Virus record (IMG/VR): IMGVR_UViG_3300030328_001043
Location: 1-26,074 of that record
Strand: one strand, 5' to 3'
From: a virus
Length of the DNA stretch: 26,074 nucleotides
Below the pieces are notes generated by a model. The model ran no database searches. It was not told the origin of the DNA and saw nothing but the letters and a program-made list of their open reading frames with translations. Positions 9,400 to 18,272 of this stretch are shown in pieces (within the stretch, counting starts at the first letter, position 1; each line of letters starts with the position of its first letter). Both the position numbers and the translations under genes were made by a program.

Positions 9400-10359
9400 A
9401 TGGCAAGAGTCGATAATACTGGTGGATCTGGTTTTACAACTGACAACGGAACTGGTCTTGTTGTAAGAACAAAGTTAAATCAAATAGTCGCAGCTTTATC
9501 TACATTAAATCAAGGCTCTGGTGATCCTTCAATTGGTGTTGCAGCTTATGTCCCTCATATTGATGGAAATACCTTAAAAATTAGAAATGCCGCCAACAAT
9601 GCGTTCGTTTCTTTAGGTGATGTATCAGCTACAAACTTCGGTCATGCGGGATTGTCTGCGGCTAATACTTTTACTTCAACAAATATATTTCAAGACGATG
9701 TAACTTTTGATGGGGCTACTGCTGGAAGAGATATCGTTTTTGACAGATCAGATAATGCCCTGGAGTTTGCAGATAATGCAAGTTTAGTTTTTGGTGCTGG
9801 TTCAGATTTAACCATTACTCATGACGCAACTGACAGCACAATAACAAGTGCAACAAATGATTTAAAAATTACCAGTAATGGTGATGACCTTATTCTTGAG
9901 GCTGAAGATGATGTAATCATCAGGGATAATGGTGGTTCTAATATTTTGGCGCAATTTATTAATGGTGGAGCAAATGAGCTATATCATAATGCAACAAAGA
10001 AATTTGAAACGGCTAGTGGAGGCATATCACTCACAGGAGGAGCAGCAGCTAACGTCACAGCCCTTTCAGATGGGGCAACAATAACAATTGATATGGCTAC
10101 TGCCTGCCACCATTCAGTAACGCTCGGTGGCAATAGAACATTTGCAGCACCAAGTAATCAGGTAGTAGGTCAATCAGGTTCAATATTTATAACGCAAGAT
10201 GGAACAGGGTCTAGGACAGCTTCATTTAATGCTGCATTTAAGTTTGTAGGAGGTACAGCACCAACACTTACAACAACGGCAGCTGCAGTAGATCGAATAG
10301 ATTATATAATTTTATCGAGCAACGTGATACATTGTGCAGTTTCATTGGACGTTAAGTAA
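9400..10359 (+). CDS. Tail fibre-like protein
   Basis: A 319-aa protein. The N-terminal part (GGSGFTTDNGTGLVVRTKLNQIVAALSTLNQG) is typical of proteins that attach fibres to cyanophage tails. The middle has repeated short strands with aspartates (LEFADNASLVFG, DLTITHDATDSTIT, DLKITSNGDDLILEAEDDV), resembling a beta-helical or trimeric fibre shaft. The C-terminal third has a separate beta domain (TITIDMATACHHSVTLGGNRTF). It follows J by 36 bp and joins the next gene by a TAATG overlap. A role in adsorption is inferred; the receptor is unknown. Confidence 0.72.
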   Translation: MARVDNTGGSGFTTDNGTGLVVRTKLNQIVAALSTLNQGSGDPSIGVAAYVPHIDGNTLKIRNAANNAFVSLGDVSATNFGHAGLSAANTFTSTNIFQDDVTFDGATAGRDIVFDRSDNALEFADNASLVFGAGSDLTITHDATDSTITSATNDLKITSNGDDLILEAEDDVIIRDNGGSNILAQFINGGANELYHNATKKFETASGGISLTGGAAANVTALSDGATITIDMATACHHSVTLGGNRTFAAPSNQVVGQSGSIFITQDGTGSRTASFNAAFKFVGGTAPTLTTTAAAVDRIDYIILSSNVIHCAVSLDVK

Positions 10360-12857
10360 TGCCATTTTCTGATGCAATAAGAATCGGTGCTTCTGGGGCT
10401 GCTGATACTACCTATACAGTAGATCGCAGTTTAAGGTTTAATAAATCTGATTCAATGTACTTAGAGAGGACACCATCTAGTACAGGAAATCAAAAAGTTT
10501 GGACATGGAGTGCATGGTTTAAAAGAACTTTATTGCATGATACTGGAGGAACAACTTATCTTTTTAGTTGTAATAATGTATCAGGTAATGATGGCATTGC
10601 TGCAATTTATATAAATAATGACAAAATCAATACTTATTTCGATACAAGTGGTTCAAATCCATATGGTGCTGTAAATGATCGGCTGTATAGGGATGTTGGC
10701 GCGTGGATGCACATTGTTTGGCAAGTTGATGCAGCTAATACTAGTCAAAGAATTTGGATAAATGGAGTTGAAGAAACTTTAAATTCAGGAAATAATCCAC
10801 CTGATTTTGCCTATGGAATGAACCAATCTGGAATAAAAATGTTTCTTGGAAGGGATGGTGATTGGGGCAGTGACCATTCAAATATCTATTTTGCAGAAGT
10901 GCATTTTTCAGATGGTAATAAATATGAAGCTAGTGATTTTGCTGAAACAAATTCCGAAACTGGTCAATGGGTTCCAAAATCACCCTCTATAACATACGGA
11001 ACAAATGGATATTATCTAAATTTTTCAGACAATTCTGGAACGACTGCTACAACTCTTGGCAAAGATTCTAGTGGTAACTCTAACAATTTCACGCCAACTA
11101 ATTTTTCTGTTAGCACTGGTCTTGGTAATGATTCCATGAAAGATACTCCTACAAATAATTTCGCTACTTTTAACCCATTATTAAAAGTAGCTTCAAGTTC
11201 AGCTTACACAAATGGTGCTTTAGAGTTTGCCGCATCTTCTACTGGACAAAAACGTACAGGTTCAACTTTTGCGCATGATTCTGGTAAGTGGTATGCAGAA
11301 TTTAGATTAGATAGTTATTCATCTGCAAGTGGTTCTTATCCTTATATTGGTGTAGCTCCAAATAATGTAACAGAACCTGGGAGCGGTGAATCGAATACTT
11401 GGATTGGTTATATTGGTACTGCCGTAAATAGTGCTGGAGCTGCCTACAAAGATGGTAGTAGCATTACTGGTGGATTTTCTTATGCTGCTGGAGATATTAT
11501 TGGCATGGCTTTAGATGTAGATAATTTATTGGTTTATTTTTATAAAAATGGCACTATACAAAATAGTGGCACTGGTTATGCCATAACGGCTAATACTGAT
11601 AAAGGGTATCAATTTAATGTCTCATTATATGCAAGTAGTGGTAAATGGGCAGCAAATTTTGGTGGTATTGGAATAGGCAGTAATTCAGATGCTAATGGTC
11701 ACGGGAACTTTACTTATGCTGTACCTTCTGGATATCTAGCTGAATGTACAGCAAACTTACCTGAACCATCAATAGCTTTACCTAATAAACATTTTGGAAC
11801 TTTATTATATTCTGCTGGTTCAAGTAATGGTACTTTTACTTTTACAGATAGCGATGCAGTAGATTTTTTCCCTGATTTTACTTGGATAAAATGTAGAGAT
11901 GCTAGTGAAAAACATTTCTTGATGGATGCTATAAGAGGTAATGTTGATATTGATAGTGCTTCAGATAGTAAGTGGCTTATTTCCAATACTAATGAAGTCG
12001 AAGGTAATGGAGGTGGTCATCTTGATGGAGCAACTGTAAGTTCTGTTCAAAATGGAATAAAAATTGTTGAAACTTCTATAGGTTCTGGAGAAATATACTT
12101 TACAAATAGAAATTATGTGACTTGGAACTGGAACGCTGGTGGTTCTACAGTAACTAATAATGATGGAGCGACTGCATCACAAGTAAGAGCTAATACTTCC
12201 GCAGGGTTTTCTATCGTTACTTATACAGGAACAGGTGATACTTCCGAGACTTATGGACATGGACTAGGGGTTAAACCAGATTGCATAATTGTTAAATGTA
12301 GAAATACGGCTGGACAAGATTGGGTTATGTATCACAAAGACTTAAATGGAGGAAGTTCACCTGCTGAACGTGTTCTTAAATTAAATACAACGGCTGCTGA
12401 AGCTGATTTAGGAGATGTTTGGTATGATACAGAACCAACTTCTTCTGTTTTTACTGTTGGTGATGAGTATATGGTTAATGGTAGTTCTAGTCTTAACTAT
12501 GTGGCTTACTGTTTTAGCGGAGTAGCAGGGTACAGCAAATTTGGGTCGTATAAGGGCAATGGATCAAGTGATGGTACATTTGTAAGTCTAGGTTTTAAAC
12601 CAGCTTTTTTAATTTTAAAAGGTGCTGATAATGTTGATAATTGGTTTACTATTGATAATAAAAGAGATACTTCTAACGTATGTGATACTCTTCTAAGGCC
12701 AAACACAAACGAGACTGATTTTACTTTTACAACTCTTGATTTTCTTTCTAATGGATTTAAAATTCGATCTGATAATAGTGCTTTTAATACAAATGGTAAT
12801 ACTTATATTTATTTAGCATTTGCGGAATCACCATTTAGAAACGCTCGTGCTAGATAA
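10359..12857 (+). CDS. Large LamG/SPRY-like adhesin, putative receptor-binding tail protein
   Basis: An 832-aa protein. Residues about 25-200 are a concanavalin A-like (LamG) lectin domain: SMYLERTPSS, KVWTWSAWFKR, MHIVWQVDAANTSQRIWING, IKMFLGRDGDW, YFAEVHFSDG. Residues about 290-440 look like a SPRY/B30.2-type beta sandwich (KWYAEFRLDSYSS, YPYIGVAPNN, AAGDIIGMALDVDNLLVYFY). The remaining part contains two related units with FVSLGFKPAFLILKG and GLGVKPDCIIVKC, each followed by W-x-(V/F) strands. Such modules bind carbohydrates or proteins, so a role in host recognition is inferred. It starts one base inside the previous stop. Confidence 0.72.
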   Translation: MPFSDAIRIGASGAADTTYTVDRSLRFNKSDSMYLERTPSSTGNQKVWTWSAWFKRTLLHDTGGTTYLFSCNNVSGNDGIAAIYINNDKINTYFDTSGSNPYGAVNDRLYRDVGAWMHIVWQVDAANTSQRIWINGVEETLNSGNNPPDFAYGMNQSGIKMFLGRDGDWGSDHSNIYFAEVHFSDGNKYEASDFAETNSETGQWVPKSPSITYGTNGYYLNFSDNSGTTATTLGKDSSGNSNNFTPTNFSVSTGLGNDSMKDTPTNNFATFNPLLKVASSSAYTNGALEFAASSTGQKRTGSTFAHDSGKWYAEFRLDSYSSASGSYPYIGVAPNNVTEPGSGESNTWIGYIGTAVNSAGAAYKDGSSITGGFSYAAGDIIGMALDVDNLLVYFYKNGTIQNSGTGYAITANTDKGYQFNVSLYASSGKWAANFGGIGIGSNSDANGHGNFTYAVPSGYLAECTANLPEPSIALPNKHFGTLLYSAGSSNGTFTFTDSDAVDFFPDFTWIKCRDASEKHFLMDAIRGNVDIDSASDSKWLISNTNEVEGNGGGHLDGATVSSVQNGIKIVETSIGSGEIYFTNRNYVTWNWNAGGSTVTNNDGATASQVRANTSAGFSIVTYTGTGDTSETYGHGLGVKPDCIIVKCRNTAGQDWVMYHKDLNGGSSPAERVLKLNTTAAEADLGDVWYDTEPTSSVFTVGDEYMVNGSSSLNYVAYCFSGVAGYSKFGSYKGNGSSDGTFVSLGFKPAFLILKGADNVDNWFTIDNKRDTSNVCDTLLRPNTNETDFTFTTLDFLSNGFKIRSDNSAFNTNGNTYIYLAFAESPFRNARAR

Positions 12858-13415: not shown

Positions 13416-13536
13416 ATTCTGTCATTTGTCTTGTCACTAAAGACATTGTGACGTAGAGAGGTGCGAGTGCCATAATTCCTACGAAGGTTATAATGGTGAC
13501 AGGCACTAATGCCTTTGCTATTGCTTCTTTAATCAT
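13405..13536 (-). CDS. Small membrane protein, 43 aa, antisense to its neighbours
   Basis: On the minus strand an ATG at 13536 opens a 43-codon ORF ending at TAG 13405-13407. The product has a basic-amphipathic N-terminus (MIKEAIAKALVPV), one hydrophobic transmembrane helix (VTIITFVGIMALAPLYVTM) and a polar C-terminus (TRQMTESKN). It fills an otherwise empty stretch between two plus-strand genes and overlaps the 3' end of one and the 5' end of the other. From memory, a very similar short protein occurs in cyanophages; this is unverified. No Shine-Dalgarno sequence is obvious. Confidence 0.6.
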   Translation of the reverse strand: MIKEAIAKALVPVTIITFVGIMALAPLYVTMSLVTRQMTESKN

Positions 13537-13759
13537 GTTTCAAAAAATTGCTAATGTTCTGAGTATCATCTCATTTTTAATGGTAACTTCTGTTGTTGGT
13601 GGAGGGTACTTTGGTTATAAGTATGTAACCTCTGAACAGTTCAAAGCAAAGATGATGAATCAAGTTATGGGTAATGTAAAAGGAATGATGCCAAATGTAT
13701 TGGAAAAAGGATTACCAAAAACAACTGGCATATCTATACCAGCACCATTAAAGAAATAA
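13535..13759 (+). CDS. Small membrane protein, 74 aa (possible longer start at 13493)
   Basis: From the ATG at 13535 the product begins MFQKIANVLSIISFLMVTS, a transmembrane helix with a glycine-rich end (VVGGGYFGYKYVTS). A Met/Lys-rich helix and a proline-containing end (TTGISIPAPLKK) follow. An in-frame ATG at 13493 preceded by AAGG would add 14 residues, giving 88 aa. The shorter start is preferred because it makes the protein begin directly with the membrane helix and leaves the antisense 43-aa ORF nearly free. I recall similar cyanophage proteins starting at MF-KIAN. Function is unknown; it is followed immediately by the 219-aa gene. Confidence 0.65.
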   Translation: MFQKIANVLSIISFLMVTSVVGGGYFGYKYVTSEQFKAKMMNQVMGNVKGMMPNVLEKGLPKTTGISIPAPLKK

Positions 13760-14419
13760 TTGGAAATACCTGAGATAAGTATTCCAGAAATACATATACC
13801 TGAGATTCATATACCTTATACTTTTTTACCTGACTATGACCATTCAAATGTAGAAGTTATAGGTTGTACTTATTACCATCGAGATACAAAAAATACAGGC
13901 AATAGAAATTTATTATTAGATGATCCAAACGGAGTCGTAAGTAACTGTCCTTATCCAAGTTTCTATCCTTTAAATTATCAGCCAGATCAATTAATTATTG
14001 TTGAGGAATCTGCACCAGTAGAACAGACACAACAACCTTTACCAGAAGGAAAACCTCCTAAAGCAGAGATACCAAAAGATGAAAAGAAAGAAGAAGAATA
14101 CAAACCTTGTCCTCCAAAGGACGCACCATTTAGGGAAGGAGATTACAGAAATGATAAAAAAATTGAAAGATTGGTAAAATATGAAAGAAGTATAGATGGC
14201 TCTTGTGACCCGATCTGGGAAGACGTACCATTCAGAGAAAGTCTTATTGGTACTCCTGAGATACTTATTTCCACTACTGTTATTGGCTTGGTTGCCGGTG
14301 GCTCTGCGGCTCTTGTACCCTTGATACAAGGTGCAGCGAAGTCAGCTATAAAACAATTAGGTAAACGTCTAAGTAAATCTAAGGTTTTAAAGAATGAGAA
14401 TGAGGGATCACCTGATTAG
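13760..14419 (+). CDS. Hypothetical membrane-anchored protein with IPEI repeats, 219 aa
   Basis: The TTG start is the base after the previous stop. The protein opens with tandem short repeats (EIPEISIPEIHIPEIHIP, residues 2-19). A domain with paired cysteines and CTYYHRDTKNTGN, LLLDDPNGVVSNCPYPSFYPLNY comes next, then a proline/lysine/glutamate-rich linker (about 85-115), a domain with further cysteines, and a likely membrane helix (ILISTTVIGLVAGGSAALVPL, about 168-188). A basic C-terminal tail ends it. Similar cyanophage proteins are recalled, without known function. The last 41 bases overlap the convergent minus-strand gene. Confidence 0.65.
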   Translation: MEIPEISIPEIHIPEIHIPYTFLPDYDHSNVEVIGCTYYHRDTKNTGNRNLLLDDPNGVVSNCPYPSFYPLNYQPDQLIIVEESAPVEQTQQPLPEGKPPKAEIPKDEKKEEEYKPCPPKDAPFREGDYRNDKKIERLVKYERSIDGSCDPIWEDVPFRESLIGTPEILISTTVIGLVAGGSAALVPLIQGAAKSAIKQLGKRLSKSKVLKNENEGSPD

Positions 14420-14966
14420 GTGGAACTGAAACTTTTATTCCTTCACAAATCTCTGCGTATTTTCCAACGAAGGTTACTCCCAGTTTTGCCTGCTCTGAGC
14501 AAACCTTAAGTCTAAAAAGTGCAAGCTCTAACGAAGTTTTCTTATATAACAACTCTTGATTTTTAATATTAATCTCAGTTGCTTTATGACAAAGATATGG
14601 TGCTTTTCCTAATGGGATACTTAACTGTGCAGAGATTCCATAGTTCAAGTTATAGTTATCTTTTTCAAATCTAGGTGTTTCTTGAACGTATTTAATAGCA
14701 CCTGTATCTTCATTGTAAATATTTTGTCTGGTAACGTCTTGTCTTGGTAAGTTGAATGTATGAGAATCGGTTACATAAGGAGTGATTGTAAGGCTAGGAG
14801 AAGAACAAACTATACCCTGTGACATCCTGAATTGTGGTGTTGAATTAGGGGCTATCATGGTGGCATTATTATTAACCGTGCCTTGGGCAGTTGAGTTCGG
14901 ACTACTGACCGTTGTCGAGGCTATAACTGGTTTTACAGGGATTAGGAATAAAGCTATTGCCCAAAT
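14379..14966 (-). CDS. Exported cysteine-containing protein; probable ATT start (or ATG at 15092)
   Basis: The frame is open from an ATG at 15092 (237 aa), but the first 42 residues of that version are an Asn/His/Arg-rich stretch that is the shadow of the upstream gene's threonine-rich end. A signal peptide (IWAIALFLIPVKPVIAS) begins at an ATT codon at 14966, which overlaps the upstream stop by 13 bases. That gives about 195 aa. No ATG, GTG or TTG lies between. The mature part has four cysteines (GIVCSS, PYLCHK, LKVCSE, AEICEG) and a strand-then-helix pattern (YGISAQLSIPLGK, then ELLYKKTSLELALFRLKV), vaguely like part of a TolC-type protein. It is the last gene of a four-gene operon; function unknown. 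Confidence 0.62.
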   Translation of the reverse strand: MWAIALFLIPVKPVIASTTVSSPNSTAQGTVNNNATMIAPNSTPQFRMSQGIVCSSPSLTITPYVTDSHTFNLPRQDVTRQNIYNEDTGAIKYVQETPRFEKDNYNLNYGISAQLSIPLGKAPYLCHKATEINIKNQELLYKKTSLELALFRLKVCSEQAKLGVTFVGKYAEICEGIKVSVPPNQVIPHSHSLKP

Positions 14967-15391
14967 GTAGTTTCTACGGTGGTTGTTGTGGTTGTATTTA
15001 TGGTGCGATTTATTGTTGTTATTGTGTCTACTCCTGGTGTGATCATTGTTTCTACCAAGGAGAAAGGTTGACCTGAGTTTACTATTTTCCATCTAGGCAC
15101 ACCTTCCAACGTAGGACTTGTATATGAAAAGTTAATTCCGTTAACCGTTTGTGTAGCTTCTGCGGTAGGTATTGAATTGATATAACCATTAACATCTGCA
15201 CTTTCTATGTTCGTGCCTGATACGCTCAGAGAATACCCTGTACGGAACTGATGAGATACCACCGATTCTGTTATTACTGATTGGGAAGTAGAATTTGTGC
15301 TTGAACTGCCTGTACGGAAGGTAGGTACTACTGGATTTGCAAGGGTTTTGACAGGAAATAATATTATTAATAGCAGCCAAAACTTAGTCAA
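14954..15391 (-). CDS. Exported hypothetical protein, 145 aa (TTG start)
   Basis: The protein starts with a clear signal peptide (MTKFWLLLIILFPVKTLANP, cleavage likely after LANP or LA-N). The mature part is Ser/Thr-rich and beta-forming, with QFRTGYSLSVSGTNIES, VNGINFSYTSPTLEGVPRW, FSLVETMITPGVDTIT and an unbroken threonine run near the C-terminus. The TTG start lies 8 bases inside the end of the 173-aa gene. I recall a family of similar small exported proteins in cyanomyoviruses, sharing the TGY-S-SGTN and FS-VET patterns; unverified. A surface or periplasmic location in the host, or on the virion, is possible. Confidence 0.68.
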   Translation of the reverse strand: MTKFWLLLIILFPVKTLANPVVPTFRTGSSSTNSTSQSVITESVVSHQFRTGYSLSVSGTNIESADVNGYINSIPTAEATQTVNGINFSYTSPTLEGVPRWKIVNSGQPFSLVETMITPGVDTITTINRTINTTTTTTVETTFGQ

Positions 15392-15905
15392 TTTGGATTG
15401 TTACTGTAGTTGACCCTATGCAACTAGAACCTGATCCAAATGCACCGCTACAAGTATGGACACCTGATGATAAAGAAGTCATAGCACCTGATCCAAGAGT
15501 ACCCCCACTACCTACAGTTGTTTGTCCTGATAAGTGTGGCAATGCTGCTATGCCTGATGATGGTGTAACAGCAGAAGGAGTGGCATCTCCAATAGTAACC
15601 GCTTCTGTAAGAGAGAAAGCAGACCCCGCTGTTGTGATAGCTTTATCAGTTTGAATCAAAGCTGGAACACCTGCGGTCAAGCTGCCTACATTTAATCCAC
15701 CAATCGCACCAGAGGTAGTGCTGCCACCAGAAGTTACAGAGGGAGTTATGTTATTACCTGATATTGAATAAGTCGTACCAAGTTTATTAGTAACAGAGTA
15801 CGGCATATCTACACTTATCTGTGCAGAGGTTGTAAATTTTTGAGTTATATCAGCGTATGCCGCAGGGCTAAAAGCCAGAAGTAATAATGGGATTAATTTT
15901 TTCAT
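15384..15905 (-). CDS. Exported Gly/Ser-rich hypothetical protein, 173 aa
   Basis: A classic signal peptide (MKKLIPLLLLAFSPAAYADI, cleavage after AYA) is followed by QKFTTSAQISVDMPYSVTN and TTYSISGNNITP, then a long low-complexity Gly/Ser/Thr region. Two cysteines near the C-terminus (HTCSGAFGSGSSC) could form a disulfide. The pattern of strand, SGNN, then FSLTEAVTIGD parallels that of the 145-aa neighbour (SGTN, then FSLVETMI), suggesting the two are distant paralogues. The start overlaps the upstream stop as ATGA. Confidence 0.68.
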   Translation of the reverse strand: MKKLIPLLLLAFSPAAYADITQKFTTSAQISVDMPYSVTNKLGTTYSISGNNITPSVTSGGSTTSGAIGGLNVGSLTAGVPALIQTDKAITTAGSAFSLTEAVTIGDATPSAVTPSSGIAALPHLSGQTTVGSGGTLGSGAMTSLSSGVHTCSGAFGSGSSCIGSTTVTIQID

Positions 15906-16342
15906 GTGTTTAATTTTCCGTTGTTTTTTACATCTTTCCCAGTAATGGGATCGACTCTAATTACATCAGGTTTACTTGTGATTAATTCTATTGGTTGTTT
16001 TATTATTATTGTTTGATAGCCATTATTGTTTGTATTAACTGTACCATTTTCTTCTTCTTTCTTTTTTTTCTTTGCTCCCTGTGCTGCATTAACACTTATA
16101 CCTAGCCCGCCAAGAATATTTCCTAAAAGTCCAGCAGCAAACGTACTATCAACTCTTGGCTGGTCTGGAATATCCATACCGAATAACTTGTTAGGTAGTT
16201 TAATATAGCCAAGAGACAAGACTAGCAAGCACCACGTTAAGATGAACGCTTGGGCTACAGTAGAAACCAAAAAAGTGATTTTTTCCTGATAGTCAGGTTT
16301 GTCATCTTCTAATTGTTTTGGTTCTTTCGGTTTCTCTGCCAT
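15902..16342 (-). CDS. Membrane protein heading the exported-protein operon, 146 aa
   Basis: A charged cytoplasmic N-terminus (EKPKEPKQLEDDKPDYQEK) is followed by one membrane helix (VAQAFILTWCLLVLSLGYI, about 28-46). Next is a glycine-rich amphipathic stretch (FAAGLLGNILGGLGISVNAA), a run of five lysines, an Asn-rich linker and a short C-terminal domain (VIRVDPITGKDV). It is the first gene of the minus-strand block and joins the next by an ATGA overlap. Similar cyanophage proteins are recalled. It may anchor or help export the three signal-peptide proteins, but that is inference from position only. Confidence 0.65.
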   Translation of the reverse strand: MAEKPKEPKQLEDDKPDYQEKITFLVSTVAQAFILTWCLLVLSLGYIKLPNKLFGMDIPDQPRVDSTFAAGLLGNILGGLGISVNAAQGAKKKKKEEENGTVNTNNNGYQTIIIKQPIELITSKPDVIRVDPITGKDVKNNGKLNT

Positions 16343-16388: not shown

Positions 16389-16550
16389 ATGCCTGAGATA
16401 TATGCAGCCTTAATAGGAGCAGCAGCTACTGCTTTTGTTATGGTGTTATCTAACATGAGCAACCGCAGAGAAAAAACTATTATTGATATATACAATAGAT
16501 TAAATAAGCTATCACAAGCCGTTAGTAGGTTAGAAGGCAAGATCCAGTGA
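16389..16550 (+). CDS. Small membrane protein, 53 aa (holin-like topology)
   Basis: A 53-aa ORF: one hydrophobic helix (IYAALIGAAATAFVMVL, residues 4-20), then a basic and heptad-patterned helix (NRREKTIIDIYNRLNKLSQAVSRLEGKIQ). One membrane helix plus a cytoplasmic coiled coil is a topology seen in some small holins and in phage accessory membrane proteins. No lysis gene is recognisable nearby, so a holin role is only a possibility. It is divergent from the export operon and followed by two further small genes on the same strand. Confidence 0.6.
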   Translation: MPEIYAALIGAAATAFVMVLSNMSNRREKTIIDIYNRLNKLSQAVSRLEGKIQ

Positions 16551-16581: not shown

Positions 16582-16743
16582 ATGGTCAAAATTCTAAAAC
16601 CTATACTATTACGCTTCCTCACCACGACAACGTGCAAGAGACTTATTGTGGACCTCTTACGCACAATCAGCGAACAAACCTCAAATAATCTTGATAATCG
16701 TGCGGTTGATATTTTGGAAAGACAACTCTTCCCAACAAAATGA
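16582..16743 (+). CDS. Hypothetical protein, 53 aa
   Basis: The ATG at 16582 opens a 53-aa ORF ending in an ATGA overlap with the next gene. The product is helical and basic at first (MVKILKPILLRFLTTTTCKR), then polar with EQTSNNLDNRAVDILERQLFP. Tight coupling to the 89-aa gene and sensible amino-acid composition support it. The sequence resembles small proteins I recall from cyanophages. Function is unknown. Confidence 0.55.
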   Translation: MVKILKPILLRFLTTTTCKRLIVDLLRTISEQTSNNLDNRAVDILERQLFPTK

Positions 16744-18077: not shown

Positions 18078-18272
18078 TTAATTAGGGTTGTTAGGTTTGT
18101 TTTGCCAATCCTCAATATCTAATCGGTTGTACCGAATAGTGTTATTAAGAATGACAGTCCATTTTGGGCCACTAGGATGACCCTTGCGAGTTTTGGTTCT
18201 CCAAAGTCGCACAGTTTGAGGTTTTACACCAAGCTCTTCAGCTAATTGATCTGAGGTTATAAGTTCATTCAT
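18078..18272 (-). CDS. Excisionase/MerR-like helix-turn-helix protein, 64 aa
   Basis: A 64-aa protein with ITSDQLAEELGVKPQTVRLWRTKTRKG, a HTH_17/excisionase-type winged helix in which QTVRLWR is the recognition helix, followed by the wing (TIRYNRLDIEDW). A strong Shine-Dalgarno (AGGAGG) precedes the ATG, which overlaps the upstream stop as ATGA. With no integrase in view, a transcription regulator or a replication accessory role is as likely as excision. Confidence 0.75.
   Translation of the reverse strand: MNELITSDQLAEELGVKPQTVRLWRTKTRKGHPSGPKWTVILNNTIRYNRLDIEDWQNKPNNPN

Follow-up and report, generated by a model that had tools for sequence, protein, structure and literature searches.

A cassette of membrane and exported proteins

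We describe a gene cassette in a viral DNA stretch of 26,074 bases (IMG/VR record IMGVR_UViG_3300030328_001043, positions 1 to 26,074; hereafter the window), whose tail terminator, major tail protein, tape measure and central tail fibre J are those of a siphovirus. At the core of the cassette is a minus-strand island of four genes, M, A, B and C (Table 1), in which M overlaps A by 4 nucleotides (nt), A overlaps B by 8 nt, and B overlaps C by 139 nt. A preliminary description had proposed overlapping tandem reading frames here for one membrane protein and three proteins with signal peptides, two of them distant paralogues, and all of this stands. By hydropathy, M has one strong transmembrane (TM)-like segment (residues 24-42) and a soluble, lysine-rich C-terminus, whereas signal-type hydrophobic segments lie at the N-termini of A and B and at residues 43-61 of C, counted from its ATG. 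The paralogues are A and B: hhalign, run on their profiles, gives a probability of 97.1% (E = 7e-11) and brings the SGN(N/T) and FSL.E motifs of the two into register.

These four genes belong to a larger cassette: the island converges on E and D and diverges from P and Q. The tails of C and D overlap by 41 nt, and every cassette member except Q carries a signal peptide or a TM-like segment. The four genes had previously been taken as a unit within a plus-strand accessory region. They are real and co-occur, and their immediate neighbors are indeed on the plus strand, but they form only half of a cassette that includes the plus-strand genes E, D, P and Q, and they lie between late genes on the plus strand and genes for recombination and replication on the minus strand. 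The window reads as tail genes, plus-strand genes up to position 14419 (with E and D directly following the tail genes), the island, three short plus-strand genes, and then the recombination and replication genes.

Table 1. Cassette genes and associated features, in window coordinates
Feature	Position	Strand	Description	Family or label
E	13493..13759	+	Small, single TM segment; usually annotated "plasmid stability"	phrog_568 (8.7e-17); T4-GC 414
D	13760..14419	+	Proline-rich; C-terminal hydrophobic segment and basic tail	phrog_570; T4-GC 234
C	14379..15092	-	237 amino acids (aa), exported; invariant Cys 96, 168, 198, 216	phrog_848 / phrog_1755; T4-GC 235
B/C dual-coded stretch	14954..15092	-	139 nt; 3' end of B (frame 0) and basic N-region of C signal peptide (frame -1)	
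Shine-Dalgarno-like GGAAGG	15102..15107	-	9 nt upstream of C ATG; GGAAGG or GGAGGG in many relatives	
B	14954..15391	-	145 aa, Sec-type exported; TTG start	DUF6322 / phrog_650; T4-GC 236
A	15384..15905	-	173 aa, Sec-type exported; paralogue of B	phrog_564; T4-GC 237
M	15902..16342	-	146 aa, membrane protein	DUF6450 / phrog_2714 / phrog_721; T4-GC 218
P	16389..16550	+	53 aa, N-terminal TM segment; divergent from M; same place in relatives	
Q	16582..16743	+	53 aa; also adjoins the cassette in T7-like cyanopodoviruses	phrog_2738

The phrog and Pfam matches of M, A, B, C, D and E carry no known function, save the name "plasmid stability" on E, for which only sub-threshold Pfam and NCBIfam hits were found. 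The same name is given to SSM1_164 of phage S-SM1, again without Pfam or NCBIfam support. Published ideas of cassette mobility and pseudolysogeny rest on this annotation (PMC3037559, PMC9602691). A promoter search gave no excess over shuffled sequences (11 versus 12.4), and terminator-like sites numbered 6, versus 1.9 in shuffles, with none at the C/D junction. Farther along the window, positions 18078-18272 encode a small helix-turn-helix-like protein that resembles, in size and place, a gene of MED4-184 and MED4-117, two Prochlorococcus siphoviruses that are regarded as lytic; in both, this gene bears the annotation excisionase and transcriptional regulator.

Occurrence and movement among three tail morphotypes

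To follow the cassette, 160 IMG/VR loci were collected using C alone, in two sets (sipho/podo-type and myovirus). Co-occurrence, which the preliminary description had suggested as a check, is near perfect. In every testable locus of the two sets, B (64/64 and 68/68) and A (54/54 and 62/62) lie upstream of C and share its strand; D is convergent in 56/58 and 65/70 (121/128 overall), and E is present in 104 of 107 testable loci. Among phage records, A was found in 231, B in 412 and C in 392, and the records with any of the three are all from cyanophages or marine viruses; this supports the cyanomyovirus relatives proposed in the preliminary description.

We conclude that the cassette is present in all three tail morphotypes of cyanophages, including siphoviruses of the type of P-HS2, which has been described as lytic (PMC7852597); the window belongs to this type. 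MED4-184 and MED4-117 have the layout of the window. The cyanomyoviruses S-TIM5, S-RIM2, P-SSM3 and S-PRM1 have A, B and C on one strand, convergent with cassette genes of the D, F and E types, and the S-SM1 record labels these genes T4-GC 218 (M), 414 (E, plasmid stability), 219 (F), 234 (D), 235 (C), 236 (B) and 237 (A). F was found only in the myovirus set, with no match in sipho-type loci. A profile search over reference phages also found B and C in P-SSP7, a T7-like podovirus, whose genes PSSP7_042 to _045 correspond, in that order, to a D-like gene, M, B and C. A tblastn search with the P-SSP7 B matched 50 records, and the matches listed have podovirus-sized genomes. P-SCSP1u carries Q, M, B, C and a convergent D-like gene, an architecture that matches the window, and in S-RIP2, NATL1A-7 and S-TIP37 B and C adjoin the small terminase gene. 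The profile search did not find B, C, D or E in S-PM2, P-SS2, S-CBS2, Ma-LMM01 or T4.

The sipho/podo-type set (loci L008-L087) includes four contigs that are T7-like by their portal and four more assigned to podoviruses by a terminase or P-SCSP1u gene match; these eight carry the podovirus labels on a maximum-likelihood tree of C. Several contigs with the T7-like portal have a C 72-79% identical to that of the window, and others have a siphovirus J protein. On the tree, podovirus sequences are nested among siphovirus sequences: one (L016) falls inside a starred clade with five siphoviruses, the window included, while the seven others form a second group with weaker support. The well-supported branches alone require three changes of the podovirus label. 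This nesting shows that the cassette has moved between siphoviruses and podoviruses, and it supports the earlier suggestion of a module passing between unrelated morphotypes; T7-like podoviruses have the cassette too. DNA identity shows recent exchange as well: the M gene of locus L064 matches P-SCSP1u at 88.7% across 275 bases, although L064 is a short contig whose morphotype lacks independent confirmation. Elsewhere, locus L028 matches the tail-fibre region of P-SSP7 with 77% DNA identity over 487 bases (locus coordinates 10293-10773), so that tail fibres, to judge from this match, pass between these phage types as well.

A host origin was considered and rejected. A scan of genome contigs gave 12 loci, of which two are in Prochlorococcus single-cell assemblies and the others are spread over unrelated taxa. 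This spread, together with the contig sizes, suggests that they are phage contigs, either infecting or misbinned, and not host genes.

A dual-coded start for C

The start of C is encoded within B, out of frame. Homology of C to distant relatives begins only at about residue 43, and the ATG 139 nt within B is nonetheless conserved: it lies at exactly -139 from the end of B in 72 of the 81 testable loci of the first set, which include four myoviruses with the ATG elsewhere. In the myovirus set, it lies at -166 or -172 in all 83 loci. C is in the -1 frame in these same 83 and in nearly all other loci. As a null model, each B codon was exchanged at random for a synonymous one, weighted by codon usage in these phages, which left the C frame open in about 3.5% of trials. 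The observed frame is open in 9 of 10 sipho/podo-type clusters (0.3 expected) and in 29 of 29 myovirus clusters (1.0 expected), where clusters were defined at <80% nucleotide identity, and the other alternative frame, used as a control, is open in no cluster. Since the clusters share ancestry, the corresponding log10 P values of -17.7 and -47.0 assume more independence than there is; the difference from the control frame holds regardless of this kinship. The hidden N-region of C holds 8.3 Lys and Arg residues, versus 5.1 expected, and 2.0 acidic residues, versus 3.3 expected, a basic-rich, acid-poor predicted composition that matches the needs of a signal-peptide N-region. As the C frame is kept open within B, much of the C signal peptide is dual-coded. 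In P-SCSP1u, the B/C overlap is 56 nt long and in the +1 frame, and C has its own ATG; the overlap has therefore persisted through a change of frame.

The conserved -1 frame could also mean that ribosomes shift to the -1 frame within the overlap and so make C as part of a B-C fusion, without a start at the internal ATG, which would be compatible with any function. We regard this as very improbable, given the fixed ATG positions in both sets, the in-frame stop directly before the ATG in most loci of the first set, the Shine-Dalgarno-like motif upstream, and the P-SCSP1u C gene with its own ATG in the +1 frame, and inspection by eye revealed no conserved slippery heptamer in the overlap.

Because C starts out of frame inside B, it has been missed or truncated in several reference genomes. 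It is missing, shortened or mis-started in the records of S-PRM1, S-TIM5, P-SSP7, S-TIP37 and S-RIP2, and in the NATL1A-7 record it is B that goes unannotated beneath the C reading frame. Just after the end of B, near position 9949, MED4-184 (L001) has a run of 7 T, versus 8 T in MED4-117 (L002). The shorter run breaks the frame of the C N-region in MED4-184, and it may be either a sequencing error or a real variant.

Possible functions and known systems

The preliminary description had offered surface modification, superinfection exclusion or an aid to lysis as functions, and the evidence leans toward lysis. We tentatively favor the reading that the cassette may be a lysis module that acts late to break the host envelope, at somewhat less than even odds. 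Apart from Q, which lacks a clear hydrophobic segment, the members are membrane or exported proteins, and the P-SSP7 homologues of D, M, B and C lie between the tail fibres and the small terminase subunit. T7 keeps its late lysis genes at that same place. As a candidate holin (small, one to three TM segments, charged C-terminus), M fits by size, hydropathy and topology alone, and its sole family match is DUF6450. Movement between morphotypes fits a function common to all lytic phages of one host group. In such a scheme, M would open or mark the inner membrane in a holin-like manner, perhaps together with P, Q, D and E, A, B and C would cross the inner membrane by Sec, and C, through a predicted long hairpin, might disrupt or bridge to the outer membrane, so that the cassette would replace the role of the endolysin and spanins of other phages.

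The distribution of lysozymes bears on this reading most directly. Fourteen of 16 cassette-positive phages are without PF00959; in S-SM1 it occurs only inside a 925-aa open reading frame, and DSL-LC02 has both. Among nine cassette-negative phages, PF00959 was found in S-PM2, S-CAM7, ACG-2014f, S-SRM01, S-CREM1, S-CBS2 and T4, P-SS2 has a reported lysozyme (PMC2784084), and in Ma-LMM01 neither the cassette nor PF00959 was found. S-PM2, the sole cassette-lacking cyanomyovirus in the set of Sullivan et al. (2010), has an annotated lysin, and of five further cyanomyoviruses picked for a lysin of the S-PM2 type, four are without the cassette. Amidases of PF01510 were found in 0 of 14 phages. Cassette and stand-alone phage lysozyme are thus nearly complementary in distribution, which supports replacement of canonical lysis genes. 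The S-PM2 gene itself (L221, positions 1487-1918, "putative lysin") seems to be about 213 nt longer than its annotation, since its lysozyme homology starts well upstream of the annotated start.

Several points weigh against a lysis role. No member has a holin, endolysin or spanin family match above threshold, and no peptidoglycan hydrolase family was found in any of them. A, B and C have AxA-type cleavage sites with no lipobox seen, and a hydrophobic core with such a site occurs in essentially all C sequences; thus, C is not a canonical outer-membrane spanin. The model of C (predicted local distance difference test score [pLDDT] of 55, low confidence) has its long hairpin at residues 106-126 and 133-154, followed by a 40-residue helix at 164-203. 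The lysozyme anticorrelation comes in part from a selected sample, five phages having been chosen for their lysozyme; it may reflect few independent events in related myoviruses, lineage effects are likely, and the genome-wide hydrolase search was confined to PF00959 and PF01510. The lake Synechococcus phage DSL-LC02 (OR032571) carries B (82402-82743) and a lysozyme (88122-88532) about 5.4 kb apart. Although the complementarity supports lysis, the lysozyme-selected phages, the lineage effects and the limited hydrolase search keep our estimate where it is. More doubtful is the fuller proposal of an unrecognised lysis system that lacks a recognisable endolysin, is common to most marine picocyanophages of three tail types, and comprises a holin-like protein of the DUF6450 family with its membrane partners and, on the exported side, two or three beta-rich proteins; the outer-membrane effector would start inside a neighboring gene, which would make part of its signal peptide dual-coded.

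Exported A, B and C with their membrane partners might instead alter the envelope and block adsorption or injection by further phages. The export signals, the variable middle of A and B, the island's own strand, as in an independently expressed moron, and the sharing of the cassette by many phages with common hosts all agree with exclusion or surface remodelling. We nevertheless consider it unlikely, as it alone accounts neither for the near-complementary lysozyme distribution nor for the place before the terminase in podoviruses, and the Pfam, PHROGs and PADLOC searches returned no named family, save a weak PADLOC match for D. Quite unlikely, in our view, is a nutrient or metabolite channel, with C in the outer membrane and A and B as periplasmic partners, that would raise uptake in the oligotrophic ocean during infection. 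The S-SM1 island does lie near pstS and phoA, and the order of strand and helix in C, modelled as a long hairpin and then a long helix, recalls outer-membrane efflux proteins (OEP/TolC) by eye, but that candidate was rejected when hhalign against cyanobacterial OEP from 24 loci proved not significant (probability 1.5%), and no nutrient-uptake genes adjoin the cassette in the siphoviruses and podoviruses examined. Least likely of all are virion-associated or adsorption proteins with incidental hydrophobic N-termini. D and E directly follow the tail genes here, as the D homologue does in P-SSP7, yet signal peptides imply export, and the S-TIM5 record annotates the neighbors of A, B and C as virion structural proteins and these three as hypothetical, where the preliminary description had named detection solely as virion parts as the outcome that would count against it. 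Sullivan et al. likewise describe the cluster as one of hypothetical proteins, separate from their proteome-confirmed structural genes (PMC3037559). The cassette also occurs with three tail types and probably serves something set by the host envelope, not by the virion.

In the AlphaFold2 model of B (pLDDT of 76), a very long strand of 22-23 residues lies at either end, and the tip is rich in beta structure. The C fold had no match in the PDB at E<=0.001; weak top matches to long-hairpin and ring proteins were set aside, given the low-confidence model. Searching PDB sequences with profiles of C and of B gave nothing meaningful.

Cyanophages are major killers of the ocean's main photosynthesisers, and many of the commonest marine phages may burst their hosts with this cassette, which would then be the lysis system missing from their genomes so far. 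In the cassette-positive genomes searched, with one exception, no stand-alone lysozyme was found, and the cassette genes are without known function. If the lysis reading is true, it shows how these cyanobacterial cells burst; if exclusion is, it shows how cyanophages compete. The conserved out-of-frame start of C is, in addition, a clean case of a dual-coded signal peptide. The open literature searched gave no function for the cassette genes or DUF6322 and no report of the presence in siphoviruses and podoviruses with transfer, the dual-coded start, the A/B paralogy or the lysozyme complementarity; the myovirus cassette, in contrast, was known before.

Compared with OEP/TolC (PF02321), C shares a hydrophobic strand ending in PLG/PL and then a long amphipathic helix, but it has a single strand-helix unit, versus two repeats, and no significant profile match. 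Spanin pairs (lambda Rz/Rz1, T7 18.5/18.7) are likewise two envelope proteins from out-of-frame overlapping genes near late or packaging genes; B and C differ in having signals of the signal peptidase I type, no lipobox, no TM-anchored coiled-coil partner and no sequence match. The cassette of T7-like cyanopodoviruses (PSSP7_042-045 and relatives), annotated as uncharacterised or hypothetical, is closer, with D, M, B and C, Q nearby in several, and C overlapping B out of frame. It differs in that no A was recognised in five reference podoviruses, in its layout (collinear in P-SSP7 and convergent in P-SCSP1u), and in the short +1-frame overlap of P-SCSP1u. The closest counterpart is the "mobile hypothetical genes cluster" that Sullivan et al. 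(2010) reported from 15 of 16 cyanomyoviruses, all but S-PM2, with T4-GCs 218, 219, 234, 235 and 237 and "plasmid stability" (PMC3037559); among T4-like cyanomyoviruses the cassette is nearly universal. That paper treats myoviruses only, and its accessible portion proposes no function and does not mention the B/C overlap. The T4-GC labels of S-SM1 match this cluster, and the cassette was therefore already known in myoviruses. The window holds homologues of T4-GCs 218, 234, 235 and 237 together (by phrog, tblastn and the S-SM1 labels) as well as the "plasmid stability" gene, E, and shares with S-SM1 the convergent layout of A-B-C against D and E, whereas it is siphoviral, is without F (219), has M on the A-B-C strand, and has P and Q. 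By these comparisons, the cassette of the window appears as a variant of the myovirus cluster and not an identical copy of it.

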